Source of the DNA: Acidithiobacillus sp.
GTDB lineage: Bacteria; Pseudomonadota; Gammaproteobacteria; Acidithiobacillales; Acidithiobacillaceae
Length of the DNA stretch: 51,280 nt
Reading direction: 5' to 3'
NCBI RefSeq assembly: GCF_027322205.1
Contig: NZ_DAHVHY010000008.1
Coordinates: 1-51,280, forward strand
The notes under the pieces were generated by a model. The model saw only the letters and a list, made by a program, of their open reading frames with translations, did not search any database and was not told where the DNA came from. The translations under genes were made by a program, and so were the position numbers. The first letter of the stretch is position 1, and every line of letters starts with the position of its first letter. Below, piece by piece: positions 33,112 through 51,280 of this stretch.

Positions 33112-36100
33112 TCAGGGTGTTCGTGCTGTCTTGCCATAGCCCTGGTCATGCCCAAGGGACCCCCGGATGCACTCCAGAAACAACGCCGAGGCCCTATTGA
33201 TCATAGTCAGGTTGGGTTTTTTCGAGACCCCATCGATAGGAATGGCAGCCATCGCCTCCTGGTAGCGAAGATAGGCTTGGGCTATGGGGGTCGTGCCCAA
33301 ACCCAGGCGGGAGACATGGCTGGTTACCGGGCTGATGGCGGCAATCTCTGAAAGTATGGATTCGGAAACTCCGGGGACCTGCATCAGAAGCAGATTCACG
33401 GTATCGCTGAAACGCAAATGACAGGCGTAGAGTCCGAGCGGCGATTGCGGTCCATGATAGGGCGTCGGGGTGTACGCCTGGAGCCAGGACAGCATTTCCG
33501 TAGCGGGCATGGGCCGCGCGATGGCGTATCCCTGCGCCTGTGGTACGCCGAGGGCACTCAGGGCATCCAGAATTTCCGGCGTCTCCGCGCCCTCCGCCAC
33601 GAAATCCACTCCCAAGCCCTGAGCGAGACCCAAGACGCTATGCACGAAATGCAGATTGTCCGGCCGTTGCGCCAATTCCCGCACGAAGCTCTGGTCGAGC
33701 TTGACCATGTCGATCGGTAGTTCCTTGAGCCGCAGCAAAGAGGAGTAAGCACTGCCAACGTCGTCAAGGGCGAGACGCACGCCGGTAGCCTTGATTTCCA
33801 ATAGCTTTTGCCGGGCACCGGTGATAGATAAAAAGTCCCCGTATTCCAGTATCTCCAGCGTGATACGGGCAGGATCGATCCCGCTCGGCCCGACGGTTTC
33901 CGCCAGACAATGCAAACAGGCGTCATGGGTGAGGAGTTCCGGTTCCGCATTGACGGACACCGCGAGAGGAAACCCCTCTTTTTCCCAGGCGGCCACATCC
34001 TGCAGCGCTTGGGCGAGAACAGCCTGGGTAAGTGCGCGACGCTCGTCTATAGAAAGGAAAGTCAGGAAATGGGCGGGGGCAAGGATTTCACCAACGCCGT
34101 CCATCAGGCGCGCCAACGCCTCCACGCCCACTACTTGGCCACTTTCGAGATCAATGATGGGTTGGTAATGAACGCGCAAGCCTCCCGCGGCAAACAGGGT
34201 GCTCATACTTTGCCGAAGGACAGTCACGTCCACGTCCGTATCGGCGTGATAATACGCCCAGAATCGCTGCCGATGCCTCTTCGCTTCCTTGATGGTGTAG
34301 AGGGCATGGTCCGCATGGCGCAGCAGCAAGTCGGGATCGCAGTCGTCGAAGGGATAGAAGGTCAGCCCCAGGCTGCCGCGCACGGTCACGCTATCCCCGC
34401 CAGGAAGAACAAAAGGCGTCTCGATGGCCCATTGGACCCGGGCGAGGACCAGCTCCAGGTCGTCCACGCTTCTCAGGTCTTCAAAAACGAGGACGAACTC
34501 GTCACCGCCGAGGCGTACCGCGAAATCGGTCTGCCGCAGGGCCTTCTGGAGACGGTCGGCGAGCGTGGTCAGCAGAATGTCGCCGGCGGCATGGCCGTAT
34601 TGGTCATTGATGGGTTTGAAGTCATCGAGATCCAGCATGCCGACGGCCAGTATTCGCTCATGGCGGAGCGTACGGGCCATGGCATCCGCCATGCGCGGGG
34701 ACAGGGCGGCACGGTTGGGCAATCCGGTCAGGAGATCATGGTAGGCGAGCCAAGCCTGTCGGCTATGCTCGGCATCGAGGTGCGCCCGGAGATCGAGTTC
34801 GTCGAGGCCATGGCTGAGGAGCCGGGCAATTCGCGCCAGTAGCGCCAGAATTGCTTCATCGAAAACCCCGGGGCGATCGGCAATGATCACGAGGACACCC
34901 CAGATCACCCCCTGGCGATAGATCGGAATGGCAGCGGAAGCCCGCCAGTGGTGCCGTAAAAACTGATCGTGCAACAATGCCAGAGAGGGATCCGCCAGAT
35001 AATCGTTGCTATAGTGCAGACGCCCGCTACGCCAGGCACGGGCGGCAAGGCTCTGACCCTCCGGTGTATCCGCCACGGTCAGATGGATGGAGTCGATAGT
35101 CTGGGCACCGCGTCCTGCCGTAACGAGATACTTCATGACCCCTTCTTCGTTGGGATGGCCAACCCAGGCAGCGGTGAAGAGATGGCTGATGGCAAGACGT
35201 CGGCAGGTTTCCCTGAGAAGGTCCCGCTGGTTATGCGCGCGCAGCAGGATATCCCCCTCCGCCATGAGGGCGTGATACAGAGCGTTGAGCCGTTCGAGGG
35301 CTTCCCGATGGCCAATTTCTTCCGCGATAAGATGCAGCCGCTCCATCGCGAGCCCCAAGACCGCAGCGAGATGCGCAAGAATCATCTGCTGATCGGGGTG
35401 CCCAAAAAAGCCCCGCTCCCGGCTCAACAGCGCGAGAACGCTCCGACTCCGTCCGCCGGAGTCAACCAGGGGGATGGCGGCATTGGAATTCCAGCCAAAG
35501 GGCCGGGCCGGTTCCCGCCAGGGCCGCATGGAAGCGTCGTCGACCCAGTCCGGAGTGACCTGCACCTTCTCTGTTCGCCATGCGCGCCCGGCAGGACCCT
35601 GGCCTTGGGGCGTGTCATCGACGGTGATCGTAACGGTCGCGACATACTCGGCCATACCTGCTCCGGCAGTCGCCGTAATGACCATCTTGCCAGTGCTGTC
35701 CGGACACCCGAACCAAGCGCCGTCTACACCACCTTCCCGAATGAGGAAGTCCATGATCTGCGGGATCATCGTTGCTTCGGAGTCCGCGCCGACCATCAGA
35801 TAATCCAGGTGCAGGAGTAGATTCCGGACACTACTGGAGCCCTCGGCATAGCCCTCAAGCTGCCAGGCCAGATCCTGCAGCAGGCGTCCCACCAACAAAG
35901 CGCGCAGGGGATGGCGATCCCTTGCGGCAATTTCGGGCCGATCTACCTGCTCCAGAAGATGGCGCCAATACAAGGTGTAGCTGTCAGCCACCCAGGATGG
36001 CAACACACCGTGACGATAATGGGTCCGGCCTGCCAGATGGGCGTTCTCGCGCCAGGATGTCTCCATCTCCGGATCCAGAAGCAGACGCAGATGGCGCGCT

Positions 36101-36273
36101 TGCGCCGCGCGCAAGTGTTGATAACGTTCCGGGGAAAGCCGGTTCAACACCTGCGCACGCTCGGGAATAGCCTCCAGCGTCCTATAAAAGGCCACAATGA
36201 AGGCTTCGACACCTGTCGCCAGGAACTGGTAATAACTGGCAAGAGGGTCGGTGGAAAGGGCTTGTTGATTCAT
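33112..36273 (-). CDS. globin-coupled sensor with two GAF domains, GGDEF and EAL
   Basis: 1053 residues, no membrane segment. Residues 1-145 look like a sensor globin (FYRTLEAIPERAQVLNRLSP, then AGRTHYRHGVLPSW with a probable proximal haem His near 85). Two GAF domains occupy about 160-310 and 330-490. The GGDEF domain (about 500-680) keeps RLGGDEFVL and an RxxD inhibitory site five residues before it. The EAL domain (about 695-940) keeps VEALAR, VSVNAEPE, ALDDVGSAYSSL, VKLDQSF and AEGAE, so both cyclic-di-GMP synthesis and breakdown are possible. A 110-residue C-terminal tail is unassigned. ATG at 36273 with GGGGGAC upstream is preferred to a TTG at 36285. Gas or redox sensing is inferred. 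Confidence 0.85.
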   Translation of the reverse strand: MNQQALSTDPLASYYQFLATGVEAFIVAFYRTLEAIPERAQVLNRLSPERYQHLRAAQARHLRLLLDPEMETSWRENAHLAGRTHYRHGVLPSWVADSYTLYWRHLLEQVDRPEIAARDRHPLRALLVGRLLQDLAWQLEGYAEGSSSVRNLLLHLDYLMVGADSEATMIPQIMDFLIREGGVDGAWFGCPDSTGKMVITATAGAGMAEYVATVTITVDDTPQGQGPAGRAWRTEKVQVTPDWVDDASMRPWREPARPFGWNSNAAIPLVDSGGRSRSVLALLSRERGFFGHPDQQMILAHLAAVLGLAMERLHLIAEEIGHREALERLNALYHALMAEGDILLRAHNQRDLLRETCRRLAISHLFTAAWVGHPNEEGVMKYLVTAGRGAQTIDSIHLTVADTPEGQSLAARAWRSGRLHYSNDYLADPSLALLHDQFLRHHWRASAAIPIYRQGVIWGVLVIIADRPGVFDEAILALLARIARLLSHGLDELDLRAHLDAEHSRQAWLAYHDLLTGLPNRAALSPRMADAMARTLRHERILAVGMLDLDDFKPINDQYGHAAGDILLTTLADRLQKALRQTDFAVRLGGDEFVLVFEDLRSVDDLELVLARVQWAIETPFVLPGGDSVTVRGSLGLTFYPFDDCDPDLLLRHADHALYTIKEAKRHRQRFWAYYHADTDVDVTVLRQSMSTLFAAGGLRVHYQPIIDLESGQVVGVEALARLMDGVGEILAPAHFLTFLSIDERRALTQAVLAQALQDVAAWEKEGFPLAVSVNAEPELLTHDACLHCLAETVGPSGIDPARITLEILEYGDFLSITGARQKLLEIKATGVRLALDDVGSAYSSLLRLKELPIDMVKLDQSFVRELAQRPDNLHFVHSVLGLAQGLGVDFVAEGAETPEILDALSALGVPQAQGYAIARPMPATEMLSWLQAYTPTPYHGPQSPLGLYACHLRFSDTVNLLLMQVPGVSESILSEIAAISPVTSHVSRLGLGTTPIAQAYLRYQEAMAAIPIDGVSKKPNLTMINRASALFLECIRGSLGHDQGYGKTARTP

Positions 36274-36307
36274 GAAGTCCCCCAATGAGGCGAAGTCCTA
36301 CAATAAT

Positions 36308-45995: not shown

Positions 45996-46808
45996 TTATT
46001 TCGCGTACTGGAACCCCGCCATTTCGAGTTCCGGCAACGTACCGACAATGCCGGGCGTGAGGATGACGCCGGGAATAAGGTGGTTGGTGAACTCAGCCGC
46101 CATCTGCGAATGCGTGAGATGGTCGGGATTATCGCCTTTGGCGTGGAGACCCATGGTCAACTCCCAAACCTCATTGTGACAGGCCAGAAAGACGGCACCA
46201 CGTTTCTGCAGGACAACGATACTGTTGTCATGGGGAGAAAAAACGCCATCGGGATCATTGAAGTCCATGGGATTTGCCTGGGCGTCTGCAGTCTCCAGGA
46301 TGAAGGCATTGGTCTTCTGTTTGCCCTTGGTCAGTTTAGCAAAGCGGTACTTCTCCCAGATATAGTCGTCGTACAGTGCGAGATGCGCGCTGCCATGGGT
46401 CGCGGACACCGCCAGGAAATTGGGATGCCGGAATGACCAGATCTGGGTGTTCATGGCATTGCGCATGAGATTCAGCCAGGGGCTCTCCAAGGCCGTATTG
46501 TCCCACACCTGTTTCGGTGCACCGGAATAGCGCAACACCTCATCGAGGGCCTCGCTATCCCATTGGTCAGGGCTGGTCAGGATCATCGGCACCGTCTTGA
46601 AGTCACGTCGCCGGGGGGCTGCGGCCAAACGATCGCTGAGATCCTGGAGGGTGGTCGCGCCGCCGACCAAAAGTGGAGCAGCCGCGCCACGCATCGTGGC
46701 GGCCAATCCGGTAGAACTGGCCCCCATGGCCACCGCGCCGATACCAACCCCCAGTAGCGTACGTTTCATCGCATCTCTACGCCCTATATATACATTTTCA
46801 GGTTTCAC
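45996..46808 (-). CDS. Tat-exported DsrE-like protein of the MNIO operon
   Basis: 270 residues. A twin-arginine signal (GRRDAMKRTLLGVGIGAVAMG) ends near residue 37, so the folded protein goes to the periplasm. The C-terminal half resembles DsrE/DsrF-like domains: a strand with one Cys (AVFLACHNEVWEL, Cys near 208) and the ending HLIPGVILTPGIVGTLPELEMAGF, like the PGV...G...I..L...GY pattern of the family. The start is GTG with GGGAGAAAGCAA upstream and is needed for the Tat motif. It is the last gene after bufC, 82 bases on. Sulfur relay or cofactor handling is possible; function is unknown. Confidence 0.6.
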   Translation of the reverse strand: MKPENVYIGRRDAMKRTLLGVGIGAVAMGASSTGLAATMRGAAAPLLVGGATTLQDLSDRLAAAPRRRDFKTVPMILTSPDQWDSEALDEVLRYSGAPKQVWDNTALESPWLNLMRNAMNTQIWSFRHPNFLAVSATHGSAHLALYDDYIWEKYRFAKLTKGKQKTNAFILETADAQANPMDFNDPDGVFSPHDNSIVVLQKRGAVFLACHNEVWELTMGLHAKGDNPDHLTHSQMAAEFTNHLIPGVILTPGIVGTLPELEMAGFQYAK

Positions 46809-46890
46809 TTGCTTTCTCCCCTTAATATCAGACGGAACTGCACATAAAATGGCGCGGGCGCCAAAGGATAAAATGACAAAGGGTACCCCA

Positions 46891-47685
46891 TCAGGCCGCG
46901 GCTTGAATCCCTGTAATCAGACCTCGAGTAAACGCCCAATCCATCGCGCTTTGCAAATCGAATGATTCGTTGACGAGCGATCCGACTTGCACAGCAACAT
47001 CCACCGCCTCGGAAAGCACCGCCTTTTCCCGCAAGGCAAAAAGCCAGCGCCACAGAACGGGCGATATGGTTTCAACAGTTACCTGGTGCTGATCCCGATA
47101 AATGGCCACTGCCGCGGCCTCACCATGCGTCAAGGCCGATTTGGCATTCAGTTTTTCCTCGGGAGTCCCCTGAGCGGCGACCCAGAGCTTTGCGACGGGA
47201 TAGGCGGAAATCAGCAGTTGCAGCGACGGTGCGAACCGGATCCGCAAATTCGGCCACTGTTCCAAACCGATCTCGCCCAGAGCGGCTGGCAACGCCGTGT
47301 CTTCCTTAGCGCTCGACAGGGCAACACCCCGTGCCCACTCCAATCGCGCGACATCTGCCAGATAAGGATATTGACCGATCTCCGGACGGCTTTCCAAAAA
47401 GTGTGGAAGCTCTTCGCCATACTCTTGCAGATTACCACTGGATGATGGATGACATCGGCCATAACGCAAGGCCAGGTTCCGAAAATAGCGAATGCCCACC
47501 AGTGCGCCCACCGCAGGATAGGTTGTCTCGAGTGCATCGCGCCACGCGAGATGGACCTGATTGTGGTAAATCCACAGATGACGCTCGGCGGCCAGAGCGT
47601 CATCGCGAACCCAGGACGATGCCCCTGAAAAATCAGACTGTGTCAGGGCACGCGCAAACTGTTCCTGCGATAGCTTTAGCGACAC
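46891..47685 (-). CDS. bufC: DUF2063 (BufC/HvfC-type) partner of the MNIO enzyme
   Basis: 264 residues. The N-terminal DUF2063 domain shows QEQFARALTQ, ALAAERHLWIYHNQVHLAWRD and TYPAVGALVGIRYFRNLA, then HPSSSGNLQEYGEELPHFLE. The C-terminal half is a degenerate helical and beta domain. In RiPP systems such as methanobactin and bufferin this partner helps the MNIO enzyme bind its precursor. The GTG start has GGAAGG upstream and overlaps the bufB end by 10 bases, implying coupled translation and a stoichiometric complex. Confidence 0.85.
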   Translation of the reverse strand: MSLKLSQEQFARALTQSDFSGASSWVRDDALAAERHLWIYHNQVHLAWRDALETTYPAVGALVGIRYFRNLALRYGRCHPSSSGNLQEYGEELPHFLESRPEIGQYPYLADVARLEWARGVALSSAKEDTALPAALGEIGLEQWPNLRIRFAPSLQLLISAYPVAKLWVAAQGTPEEKLNAKSALTHGEAAAVAIYRDQHQVTVETISPVLWRWLFALREKAVLSEAVDVAVQVGSLVNESFDLQSAMDWAFTRGLITGIQAAA

Positions 47686-48545
47686 GAGGGGCCTTCCTGC
47701 ATGAATAACCGGGCACGTTGCGCCTCATCGACCAACTGCTGGAGCGCCGGGAGATTGGCATCCCGCTCGATGAGGGTGGGACGGGGTCCCGCGCGGTCCA
47801 GAATGCGACGATACAGCGCCCAGACATCGTCTGAGACGGAGCGGTCATGGCTGTCAATCCAGACACTACCGTCCCGGAATTGGTTGAGGTGGCATCCGGC
47901 CAGATGGATTTCCTCCACCGCCGAGAAACGGATTGTATCCAGGAAAATTTGCGGATCCTCGCCATGATTTCTGCTGTTGACATAGAGATTGGTGACATCC
48001 AGGAGTATCCCGCAACCGGTGCGATCCACCAAGGCATTCAGCAGGTCGGCCTCGTTGATCTGGTCCTCTTTATAGCGCAGATAAGCGGCAATGGGCTCGA
48101 TGAGTATCGTGCGACCGAGGACGCTTTGCACTTGTTCTATGTGATCAGACACCCGTATCAGCGTTTCCCAAGTGAAGGGCATGGGGAGCAAGTGGTTAAA
48201 ATGCGCCCCCTGAAGCCCCGTCCAACAGACATGTTCAGAAACCACGAAAGGTTCTGAATGCACGACAAGCTCCTGCAGGGAACGGACATGCCGGTCGTCC
48301 AACGTGTCATTACCAAGGCCAAGCCCTACTCCATGAATACTTACCGCATAGTCCTGACGCAGGAGATCCAGATCTGCACGGGCAGGACTCCCCGCGTTAA
48401 AGTAATTTTCGGCATGTATTTCAATAAAATCCACAGACGGCCGGAGTAACCTCCACACCTCATGCTGGGCTACCCGCAGCCCAATGCCAATACGCGTTCG
48501 ATCAGGAGCATTGGCATCGTTTACTGCGCACGTTCTTTGATCCAC
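47676..48545 (-). CDS. bufB: DUF692 multinuclear non-haem iron oxidative enzyme (MNIO, BufB type)
   Basis: 289 residues, TIM-barrel DUF692. Conserved blocks carry likely iron ligands: GIGLRVAQHEVW, FIEIHAENYF, SIHGVGLGLG, VVSEHVCWTG, LLDVTNLYVNSRNHG, EIHLAGCH and WIDSHDR. MNIO enzymes use two or three irons and O2 to rearrange Cys residues of small peptides, for example to thiooxazoles in bufferins. The GTG start has GGAG seven bases upstream and lies inside the end of the second precursor gene. Adjacency to two DUF2282-like precursors makes them its probable substrates. Confidence 0.9.
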   Translation of the reverse strand: MDQRTCAVNDANAPDRTRIGIGLRVAQHEVWRLLRPSVDFIEIHAENYFNAGSPARADLDLLRQDYAVSIHGVGLGLGNDTLDDRHVRSLQELVVHSEPFVVSEHVCWTGLQGAHFNHLLPMPFTWETLIRVSDHIEQVQSVLGRTILIEPIAAYLRYKEDQINEADLLNALVDRTGCGILLDVTNLYVNSRNHGEDPQIFLDTIRFSAVEEIHLAGCHLNQFRDGSVWIDSHDRSVSDDVWALYRRILDRAGPRPTLIERDANLPALQQLVDEAQRARLFMQEGPSCR

Positions 48546-48970
48546 TTGGCTGCTCCGGCAAAATATTCAGCGGCGGACCGGTTATAGATCTCCGCTTCCC
48601 GCAGCATAGGCACGGCTTTGATGGCGGCCCGCCTGGCGGCCGGAAGCGCCATGATCTTTTTGATGTGCGCCGCCGCCGCGGCCCCAGGTATAGCCGTCCC
48701 TCCGACTTCCGTACAGACCCCCGCCGGCATCCAGACATAAGCGTCGGGATCGTGCGCCTGCGGTGCCGTTCCAGCGCAAGAGCCCGTCGCGGTCAGGCAG
48801 TCGTTCTTATGTACCGCATTGACGCCCCAACAACGCACCCAGCCCTGATGCCAGGCCTGAGTCGCCGTGGCGGCCTGCGCCGCATTGCCAATTACCAGGC
48901 CGGCACCGCCGGTGAGTGCAAACACCGCTGCCCGTTTTACCCAACTGAGAGAGAGTGGTTGTTCCATCAT
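48521..48970 (-). CDS. bufA: DUF2282/BufA-like precursor peptide, second paralogue
   Basis: 149 residues. A signal peptide ends near AQA at 33, followed by a core with four cysteines at 47, 58, 65 and 86 (VRCWGVNAVHKNDCLT, GSCAG, GVCTEVGG). This matches the C-[WY]-G-x6-NDC...SCAG...P.G.C..[IV]GG pattern of bufferin precursors. Unlike typical DUF2282 proteins of about 90-110 residues it has a 55-residue helical C-terminal extension ending YNRSAAEYFAGAAKWIKE. The start at 48970 has GGAG eight bases before it. Probably exported, modified by BufB, and metal-binding; inferred. Confidence 0.85.
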   Translation of the reverse strand: MMEQPLSLSWVKRAAVFALTGGAGLVIGNAAQAATATQAWHQGWVRCWGVNAVHKNDCLTATGSCAGTAPQAHDPDAYVWMPAGVCTEVGGTAIPGAAAAAHIKKIMALPAARRAAIKAVPMLREAEIYNRSAAEYFAGAAKWIKERAQ

Positions 48971-49040
48971 GATCGTTACTCCTTCTATTTCCGGTGAATC
49001 CGCGCCCAAACCACGACGCTGCATCCATGAACAACAGCGG

Positions 49041-49493
49041 CTAATGGTGGCTTTGTTTTGCCCCTTTTACCGCCTCTGAAAAATACTCCGCCGTGGATTG
49101 GTAATAGAGCCGGGCATTGTGTATGGATATGTCGGCCAGCGTTTTATGCCGTTTTTCCGGAGTCATTTGCATCACCGTTTGCAGCGCCGAGTCAGCACTC
49201 AAACCAGGGATGGCACTGCCGCCTATCTCCTTGCACACACCCACAGGCATCAGCACGTAGGCATCAGGATCATGCGCCTTGGGATCGTGGCCAATGCACG
49301 ATGTCGTACCGGTCAGGCAATCATTCTTGTACGCGGCATTGACACCCCAGCAGCGCACCCAACCCTGGTGCCATGCCTGCGCTGCGGTGGCGGCCTGCGC
49401 TGTACGCTCTGCCGTGGAGTGGGCCAATACCCCGGCCAGGGCCAATCCGCCGGCCATCCGGAACCAGTTTCTTGGCTGCTGTATATTGCTCAT
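49041..49493 (-). CDS. bufA: DUF2282/BufA-like precursor peptide, first paralogue
   Basis: 150 residues and clearly paralogous to the gene at 48521. The mature start AWHQGWVRCWGVNA is shared, cysteines are at 48, 59, 66 and 87, and the DPDAYV and GGSAIPG segments are common. A signal peptide ends near AQA at 34. The C-terminal extension is also kept (YYQSTAEYFSEAVKG). GGAG lies seven bases before the ATG. It is the first gene of the five-gene operon and so probably the most abundant product. Confidence 0.85.
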   Translation of the reverse strand: MSNIQQPRNWFRMAGGLALAGVLAHSTAERTAQAATAAQAWHQGWVRCWGVNAAYKNDCLTGTTSCIGHDPKAHDPDAYVLMPVGVCKEIGGSAIPGLSADSALQTVMQMTPEKRHKTLADISIHNARLYYQSTAEYFSEAVKGAKQSHH

Positions 49494-49723: not shown

Positions 49724-49899
49724 ATTGAGCATCCGCGTGAGGCGATCATGGTTAGCGACGTGCCTGACTGAAGCGATGCGCGGTTTCCACGTTCGTTACC
49801 GGAGTTCCAACGCATGTTTCCCAACAAAGCGGCTTGCGGGGACGATTGAATTTGAAAACCACCCTGAAAATTCCTGCATCTCTCACCCGTCCCATCACT

Positions 49900-51280
49900 A
49901 TGCCGCCCTACCGGTGGACCATGTTTCTGGTCTTTTGGGGGACGTTAGTAGGGGTGTTGGCTTTTTCCGGGGGGTATGCCTGGCTTTCCTGGCATCGTTA
50001 TGAACAAAACAGCCAGTATCGTCTGACGCTGGAATCCGACATGGTCGCGACCATCGCGCAGAAACTGCTGGACGGCCACGCCTCCGGGCTCCAGTTTTTG
50101 GGGGTGCAATTACAGCGGGCAGACGCACTGCATCATCCCCGCCGCGCCCGGACGCTCCTGCTGGACTATCAGAAGGCCACTTCGGAGATCGCCAGCGCGA
50201 ATCTTATCGCCCCGAGTGGGCAGGTCATCGCCTCCACGGCGGTACCGGCGGGGCAGCCGCTGCCGGATTTTCGTAATGATCCGGCCATCTGGCCCGGTTT
50301 TCAGAAAGTCTTACAGACCCCAGGCATGCGGGTCTACCACCCGCTCCAAGGGCCATTGGTGGGTCATTGGGTCATCCGCCTGAGTCATACGGTGTTTTCC
50401 TCGACGGGGAAACCCTTGTTTGTTATAGCCACACCGCTGCGCTTTCGTGGTATTGAAGACTTCCTGAGCCACCTGCCCTTGCGCCCGGAAACAGCTGTCG
50501 GTCTGATCCGGAGTGACCTTTACATTGAGGGACGCTGGCCCATACCCCAGGGTAATCTCTCCGGGATACTTTCCCATCCCCCACGCGCGGGCGCCTTGCT
50601 GCATGCCCTGCAGAAGAACCCCCATGCACGTCAAGGATATTATGCGGGCTTCGTCACGGTGGGACAGACCTATCGCTTTGGGGCCTTTACGCGTCTGAAC
50701 CATTACCCATTAGCCGCCTTCGTTTCCATCCCCAGGAATCAATGGCTGGCCGCCTGGTGGCGACGGCATATCCAATACCCTCTGGTCTTTCTGATCATCG
50801 CTTTGGGGTTCAGCCTAGCGGCTTATCGACGCATCCTCGGTGATGACTTGGCTCGCCAGGAAAGTCTGCAAAGGGAGCGGGAAGGCAACGCCTTCAACGA
50901 GGCGTTGCTGAACACGCAGTCGTCCGGCATCACCGTTACACGCTTTCCAGAAATGATTGTCGAGCGGGTGAACGGGCGGATGCTGGAAATGTTAGGGGCC
51001 TCTTCCCAGGAGGAGATTCTCGGGCACCCGGTACGGGAGTTCTACCTCAATGAAGAAACCTACGATCAGGTCACCATGGCGAAGCAGAAGAGCCTCAGCG
51101 AAGGCCACGCGGCACTCAAAGATGTGCCTTATCGCCGTCTGGATGGAGAGATCATATACATGGATCTTTCCGTTCAACGGATGGACGGCACGGATGGCGT
51201 GCAGCGCATACTTGGCACCCTTGTGGACGTGACGGAGCGGCATCGATTGATGTGCGAGCTTGCGCGGCAATCGCTCTCCG
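49900..51280 (+). CDS. membrane-anchored sensor with PAS domain (partial, 3' end off window)
   Basis: About 460 codons are visible and the frame is open to the window edge. A membrane helix near residues 8-30 (FLVFWGTLVGVLAFSGGYAW) and another near 292-308 (YPLVFLIIALGFSLAAY) enclose a periplasmic double-Cache-like sensor region. A cytoplasmic PAS domain follows (ITVTRFPEMIVERVNGRMLEM, then a PAC segment ending LGTLVDVTERHRL). Such proteins usually end in GGDEF, EAL or histidine kinase domains; the output lies outside. The start is uncertain: ATG at 49900 is used here, but TTG at 49852 or 49846 in the same frame has a GGGGA Shine-Dalgarno. It is divergent from the bufferin operon. Confidence 0.75.
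   Translation, partial: MPPYRWTMFLVFWGTLVGVLAFSGGYAWLSWHRYEQNSQYRLTLESDMVATIAQKLLDGHASGLQFLGVQLQRADALHHPRRARTLLLDYQKATSEIASANLIAPSGQVIASTAVPAGQPLPDFRNDPAIWPGFQKVLQTPGMRVYHPLQGPLVGHWVIRLSHTVFSSTGKPLFVIATPLRFRGIEDFLSHLPLRPETAVGLIRSDLYIEGRWPIPQGNLSGILSHPPRAGALLHALQKNPHARQGYYAGFVTVGQTYRFGAFTRLNHYPLAAFVSIPRNQWLAAWWRRHIQYPLVFLIIALGFSLAAYRRILGDDLARQESLQREREGNAFNEALLNTQSSGITVTRFPEMIVERVNGRMLEMLGASSQEEILGHPVREFYLNEETYDQVTMAKQKSLSEGHAALKDVPYRRLDGEIIYMDLSVQRMDGTDGVQRILGTLVDVTERHRLMCELARQSLS

Follow-up and report, generated by a model that had tools for sequence, protein, structure and literature searches.

The minus strand of the Acidithiobacillus sp. window (the whole stretch of DNA analysed, 51,280 nt) carries five open reading frames, head to tail from 49493 to 45996, in which two long-tailed bufferin precursor genes, a maturase gene and a partner gene are followed by a gene of the thiosulfate dehydrogenase (Tsd) family. 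This five-gene arrangement is confirmed, and the partnership of bufferin genes with a thiosulfate dehydrogenase has so far been seen in one small lineage. The region contains the following features:

49041..49493, minus strand: bufA1, precursor of 150 amino acids with four cysteines and a Sec-like signal read by eye (PF10048, E = 1.1e-11)
48521..48970, minus strand: bufA2, precursor of 149 amino acids with four cysteines and a Sec-like signal read by eye (PF10048, E = 6.2e-13)
47676..48545, minus strand: bufB, MNIO (DUF692) maturase with a GTG start (NF050167 match)
46891..47685, minus strand: bufC, DUF2063 partner protein with a GTG start (PF09836, E = 1.2e-19)
46850..46863, minus strand: GC-rich hairpin, then TTTTAT, in the bufC-tsd gap, from a hairpin search; possible terminator or attenuator
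45996..46808, minus strand: tsd, tetrathionate-forming thiosulfate dehydrogenase family, DsrE fold; 270 amino acids, GTG start, Tat motif (NF052225)
49834..51279, plus strand: divergent neighbour, a membrane sensor with a PAS domain, truncated by the contig end (open reading frame and homology)

The coordinates leave 70 nt between bufA1 and bufA2 and 82 nt between bufC and tsd; bufA2 and bufB overlap by 25 nt, and bufB and bufC by 10 nt. The order is A-B-C, with the DUF2063 partner downstream of the MNIO. The initial annotation had described five head-to-tail genes on the minus strand with overlaps at these two junctions, and had read them as a bufferin-type MNIO operon; the open reading frame list, the coordinates, and the DUF2282, BufB and DUF2063 family matches bear this out. 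None of the genes identified between 43482 and 51279 codes for DoxX, a sigma factor or an anti-sigma factor. Repeats were looked for in the intergenic regions of the operon and none were found, terminator-like hairpins in the region show no excess (5, against a mean of 4.0 in shuffles), and sigma-70-like promoters are no more numerous than in shuffles.

Both precursors belong to DUF2282 (PF10048; 44.9 bits for bufA1 and 49 for bufA2, cut-off 22.4), share about 51% identity and have four conserved cysteines each. They score below the cut-off of 60 for the BufA2 metallophore family NF050166 (22.1 and 22.9 bits). Their N-termini, read by eye, have a basic start, a hydrophobic stretch and an AQA-A site; of the two secreted four-cysteine precursors annotated initially, the cysteines and the family stand, and secretion is suggested by these Sec-like signals. 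Both end in an unusually long tail of 63 residues past the last cysteine. In a non-random sample of 54 distinct open reading frames (best-match loci and some picked by hand, with identical sequences merged and rows lacking cysteines in the aligned part removed), 10 have at least 50 residues after the last cysteine, all from just four genomes, and long tails were rejected as the DUF2282 norm in this sample. An eleventh candidate, L141, was excluded for a mis-set cysteine in an apparent tandem domain. A structure model built from 4 sequences (pLDDT 41.6) only hints at helices in the tail. A plasmid search matched bufA2 to 60 records, all of DUF2282 type, with 80% coverage of bufA2 reached in none.

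The maturase is a DUF692 MNIO enzyme, as first annotated (PF05114, E = 9.8e-90), and exceeds the cut-off of the BufB equivalog NF050167 (MNIO_BufB) by a narrow margin, with 315.8 bits against 310. Its closest solved chain is 3bww, and the iron-site motifs are present. The assignment of bufC as a DUF2063 partner likewise stands on its PF09836 match; the match to the HvfC family is weak, at 38.6 bits, under the cut-off of 142. In an MNIO tree of 50 rows, BufB of the window and of genome G007 form an isolated long branch (1.44). That the window BufB was recently copied from the other bufferin cluster of the genome was rejected, as in this tree the C130 copy sits among other Acidithiobacillaceae. 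The source genome contains two further MNIO clusters and, standing alone, a third long-tail precursor; the 14.4 kb examined around it contain no MNIO.

The fifth protein scores 405.5 bits with the thiosulfate dehydrogenase equivalog NF052225 (cut-off 300). Its predicted model has the DsrE/DsrF/YchN fold and matches solved members structurally; Cys210-His211 is invariant, and an RRDAMK Tat motif was recognised by eye at the N-terminus. Pfam, searched up to an E-value of 1, gave no DsrE match, only a sub-threshold one to DPPIV_N, and the Tsd profile, run against PDB sequences, gave two weak matches to a single TALE-like repeat protein and no relative. Of the earlier label, a Tat-exported DsrE-like protein, the Tat motif and the modelled fold are thus retained, and a Pfam DsrE match is not; we claim no priority for the DsrE fold of Tsd. 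The protein is probably a periplasmic thiosulfate-oxidising enzyme. The plasmid search gave 24 records with Tsd homologues. The initial annotation missed the thiosulfate dehydrogenase family, the long tails, the third precursor and the two further MNIO clusters, and its interpretation as a whole is partly supported.

We see about an even chance that the genes form a lineage-specific version of a Buf1-type bufferin (captophorin) operon, with Tsd coupled to it. The explanation draws on gene families, gene order, conserved residues, the predicted fold and phylogenetic spread. In each precursor, BufB with BufC would recognise the Sec signal peptide and oxidise the two central cysteines to 5-thiooxazoles. 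After export, the matured peptides, their outer cysteines paired as a disulfide, would bind periplasmic copper, a role suggested by analogy within the family; the helical tail may be an added module for docking or oligomerisation. Tsd, Tat-exported in its folded state, would turn thiosulfate into tetrathionate, probably via a Cys210 thiosulfonate. Cu(II) is reduced by thiosulfate, which also holds Cu(I) in solution, so thiosulfate removal and copper capture, encoded in one operon, would guard one compartment of an acidophile living on sulfide ores. Tsd is the redox gene of the cluster, in which the DoxX usual in the ordinary bufferin clusters of the family is missing. That comparison covers 9 loci in 7 genomes, G003 alone giving three, and it is a point against the explanation that DoxX, in all seven loci with it, sits between the two precursor genes and never after bufC.

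The full gene set recurs in a second genome at 97% DNA identity, which argues against an assembly accident. Tsd is present in 13 of the 57 relatives searched; around these, the full set was found only in the source genome and G007, with stubs in G005 (100% complete) and G020 (71% complete), both of which retain tsd and have no DUF2282 match. The contigs of relatives, with the best 80 of 220 kept, yielded 79 tsd loci: one with the full set, two with BufC stubs and 76 whose examined flank is free of both bufferin genes and stubs. A general bufferin-tsd linkage was rejected on this count. These 76 loci, the two relatives in which tsd outlasts the bufferin part, the hairpin in the 82-nt gap, and the long-tail precursors that have no Tsd nearby (clusters G291 and G385 of another family, and the lone third precursor) all speak against coupling. 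They fit a reading in which bufA1A2BC is an ordinary copper buffer and tsd an independent sulfur gene, moved downstream by rearrangement and expressed separately. The varied surroundings of tsd in the same best-80 sample, where a solute-binding protein (SBP) gene lies directly 3' in 55 of the 79 loci and doxDA in 17, point the same way, and we rate this reading a strong contender, if short of an even chance. It accounts less well for genes on the same strand separated by 82 nt, and for a bufC-tsd junction that recurs, at a spacing of roughly 82-88 nt, across three lineages belonging to two genera.

The coupled operon that we prefer could take a more specific form, in which Cu(II)-loaded long-tail bufferins dock on Tsd as its periplasmic electron acceptor, linking thiosulfate oxidation with the capture of the resulting Cu(I); we hold this to be very improbable. 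Much the same doubt attaches to a broader proposal, that the matured peptide serves Tsd either as electron acceptor, through Cu(II)-thiooxazole becoming Cu(I), or as metal donor, replacing the SBP. The SBP gene is missing beside tsd in all three loci of the window lineage and had no match in a 90%-complete genome. This absence is not special, because 24 of the 79 tsd loci (best 80 of 220) also lack the neighbour, partly through short flanks, and it was dropped as a lineage mark. Against the proposal, too, Tsd is widespread without bufferins, and A. ferrianus carries tsd but yielded no match to DUF2282. Kikumoto in 2013 reportedly found recombinant Tsd produced in E. coli to be active, which also counts against a serving peptide.

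The divergent neighbour raises the alternative that long-tail bufferins are signals, the copper-loaded peptide being read by an adjoining family of membrane sensors that would connect metal stress with c-di-GMP or another output. The window sensor is 63% identical to the GGDEF-EAL sensor adjoining the third long-tail precursor, the two being paralogues; of the two near-full-length copies in the genome, one stands beside bufA1 and one beside the lone precursor; the third precursor of G007 likewise adjoins a sensor of this family. However, the relative orientation of precursor and sensor varies among these three cases, and the sensor family is common in genomes lacking such precursors, some match occurring in 24 of the 29 family genomes. 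Contig C23, where no precursor matched, has a further match of 30 residues at 79% that may be another copy. We consider signalling unlikely.

Bufferins are a recent class with DoxX as a frequent neighbour; a cluster without doxX and with a thiosulfate-oxidising enzyme is a testable hint that copper capture is linked to thiosulfate chemistry. If the electron-acceptor reading were true, one lineage at least would reveal the physiological electron acceptor of the Tsd family, and the DoxX of ordinary bufferin clusters could, by analogy, be suspected of handling sulfur-linked electrons too. Should coupling fail, the long-tail bufferin would still be a rare variant, and the fold assignment useful. 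A 2019 review considered the structure and catalytic mechanism of thiosulfate dehydrogenase still to be clarified (PMC6335251); from its DsrE fold and invariant Cys-His, a concrete mechanism based on cysteine can be proposed for the Tsd family.

The Buf1 (DUF2282) clusters surveyed by Antoine et al. 2025 (PMC12452194) share with the window the four-cysteine precursor, the MNIO, the DUF2063 partner and the A-B-C order. They are described as bufABC with or without doxX, with precursors that measure 30 to 835 residues and may occur in tandem; the window differs in its two precursors with 63-residue tails, the thiosulfate dehydrogenase downstream, and the lack of doxX, sigma and anti-sigma genes. 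Thiosulfate and Acidithiobacillus are both absent from the main text of that survey, and the open-licence literature searched gave no paper joining DUF692 with thiosulfate dehydrogenase or DUF2282 with thiosulfate; within these sources, the initial remark that the gene set was unfamiliar was fair. Among captophorins (5-thiooxazole copper peptides, PMC13097082), an MNIO with a DUF2063/PME1 protein and a DUF2282 precursor is one of three categories described; captophorins are modified and bind copper, and for the window operon both properties are predicted. Like Tsd, DsrE3A of Metallosphaera cuprina belongs to the DsrE family, and its cysteines carry thiosulfate as S-thiosulfonate (PMC4175335). 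Unlike Tsd, it is described as a thiosulfate-transfer protein working with TusA beside an Hdr-like complex; tetrathionate loaded it and thiosulfate did not, which counts against our explanation, and the account of it reports no dehydrogenase activity. The Tsd of A. ferrooxidans (AFE_0042/AFE_0050) is reviewed as a tetrathionate-forming thiosulfate dehydrogenase (PMC6335251). The window protein belongs to the same NCBIfam equivalog and is 74% identical to the copy in G014, a genome whose tsd-sbp-doxDA-rhd layout, with Tsd1 and Tsd2 75.7% identical, fits the A. ferrooxidans cluster of the review. Neither sbp nor doxDA had a match near tsd in the window lineage: in A. ferrooxidans tsd precedes sbp-doxDA, whereas in the window it follows bufABC.

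Open reading frame calls bore out the five genes proposed in the initial annotation for an MNIO/bufferin-type operon (two precursors, an MNIO, a DUF2063 protein and a DsrE-like protein) at 49493-45996, all on the minus strand. They are spaced by +70 nt (bufA1/bufA2), −25 nt (bufA2/bufB), −10 nt (bufB/bufC) and +82 nt (bufC/tsd, the last encoding a thiosulfate dehydrogenase-family protein, Tsd). Read by eye, bufA2 most likely starts at the ATG at 48970, with AAGGAG ahead of it, and GTG starts are likely for bufB (48545), bufC (47685) and tsd (46808). Pfam and NCBIfam profiles assign both precursors to DUF2282 and BufC to DUF2063, and BufB scores 315.8 bits with MNIO_BufB, against a cut-off of 310. 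The BufA2 equivalog model matches the precursors weakly (22-23 bits against a cut-off of 60); therefore, we regard them as Buf1/DUF2282-type. This is a true Buf1 bufferin cluster, of a variant form that has two long-tail precursors and a thiosulfate dehydrogenase-family protein with the DsrE fold. We hold the bufferin assignment itself with high confidence; that Tsd functionally belongs to the cluster is a tentative proposal, with chances a little short of even.

The tails, i.e., the residues past the last cysteine, measure 63-66 residues in BufA1, BufA2, a third precursor on contig C79 of the same genome and the copies in the sister genome G007, and 52-56 residues in G291 and G385, from another family of the class. 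Alignment of BufA1 and BufA2 gives the common tail pattern A-x-x-Y-x-x-S-x-A-E-Y-F; a predicted model shows the tails as helical, but its quality is too low for it to be relied on. No MNIO is present in the 14.4 kb around the third precursor, and no Tsd near the long-tail loci of C79, G291 and G385. Both other-family long-tail clusters are followed by a gene for a thioredoxin-like/NHL-repeat protein (L150:9201-10886 and L151:3806-5413).

A membrane sensor is present twice in the window's genome, as near-full-length, closely related copies with 63% identity (window 49834-51279 and, on C79, L149:9784-12465). Each has a long-tail precursor no more than about 340-410 bp away, in differing orientations. 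They differ downstream, with PAS in the window and GGDEF-EAL on C79; a third copy may exist on contig C23, where 30 residues match at 79%. On contig C206 of G007 (L241:932-1962), a sensor with 82% DNA identity to the C79 GGDEF-EAL gene precedes the third precursor, which is followed by a rhodanese gene on the same strand and, past it, an Rrf2 regulator on the opposite strand.

The association with tsd was surveyed with one genome per species; the best 80 of 220 relatives yielded 79 tsd loci, which were compared by tblastn with the proteins of the operon and of the genome's two other MNIO clusters, over flanks of up to 10 kb, often less. Among these best 80 of 220, the whole set was found at one of the 79 loci (L040, from G007, a metagenome-assembled genome), and the BufC end alone precedes tsd at two (L041, from G020, and L042, from A. 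ferrianus, G005); the other 76 gave no bufferin-gene match within those flanks. The two BufC stubs (54 amino acids at 52% and 29 at 59% identity) are positioned relative to tsd as in the window, at a similar distance of roughly 82-88 nt, with different breakpoints. DUF2282 gave no match in G005 or in G020, the latter only 71% complete. The Tsds of the window, G007, G005 and G020 cluster in the tree with moderate support (89/77), the bootstrap being not fully settled. In the simplest history, bufABC joined tsd once before the lineages split, and the bufferin part was then lost twice with tsd kept. In A. ferrianus (L035:7225-10506), tsd is flanked by the BufC stub on one side and a TatA-like gene on the other; farther upstream, on the opposite strand, lies an integrase-like gene (names by eye).

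Across the same loci (L040-L118; best 80 of 220 relatives), a solute-binding protein gene accompanies tsd on the same strand in 55 of 79, its match beginning from 19 nt before to 166 nt after the tsd end, and doxDA occurs in 17 of 79. This conserved tsd pair extends over Pseudomonadota and some other phyla; the binding protein, assigned to SBP_bac_11 from the G014 member, weakly resembles molybdate/sulfate binders. Neither gene is present at the three loci of the window's lineage, and the binding protein has no match in the window's genome (90% complete). Its absence was dropped as a lineage mark, because 24 of the 79 tsd loci are without it.

The window spans one complete contig of a 2.28 Mb genome (150 contigs, 90% complete) that contains three MNIO genes, including bufB. 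The C130 gene belongs to an ordinary Buf1 cluster with a precursor in which only three cysteines are seen, and that on C122 is accompanied by a repeat-cysteine, oxazolin-like precursor (by eye). In the MNIO tree, the window's BufB occupies its own long branch, ruling out recent copying from the C130 cluster. By eye, an integrase-like gene adjoins the C130 cluster. The operon's contig also encodes a large protoglobin-GAF-GGDEF-EAL protein (33112-36285, minus strand).

PMC12452194 places DoxX in the core of bufferin clusters and gives extremely low proportions for additional conserved genes. Eleven MNIOs in the family lie above the BufB cut-off: two window-type and nine ordinary, the latter from seven genomes (three in G003). 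DoxX lies within about 1.5 kb in seven of the nine ordinary loci, the exceptions being C130 and one of the three G003 loci, and by coordinates between two precursor genes in all seven; in G291, which also has a long-tail precursor, it directly follows BufC. Neither window-type locus (window, G007) has DoxX within about 1.5 kb, nor does it occur on the 8.4 kb C130 contig or in the 14.3 kb of L040. The presence of tsd and absence of doxX in the window's cluster is an argument from gene content, not proof of a common function.

PMC12452194 describes, for Buf1, modification of the two central cysteines and a disulfide between the outer pair; PMC13097082 attributes 5-thiooxazole formation to MNIO-PME1 systems and copper binding to products of this type. 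The Sec signal is described as acting like a leader peptide, and Asn175, Asp242 and His244 as all essential in HvfB. Via 3bww, Asn186, Asp231 and His233 of the window's BufB would be their counterparts. By analogy with the family, cysteine modification, 5-thiooxazoles, copper binding and a leader role of the Sec signal are expected of the window's cluster.
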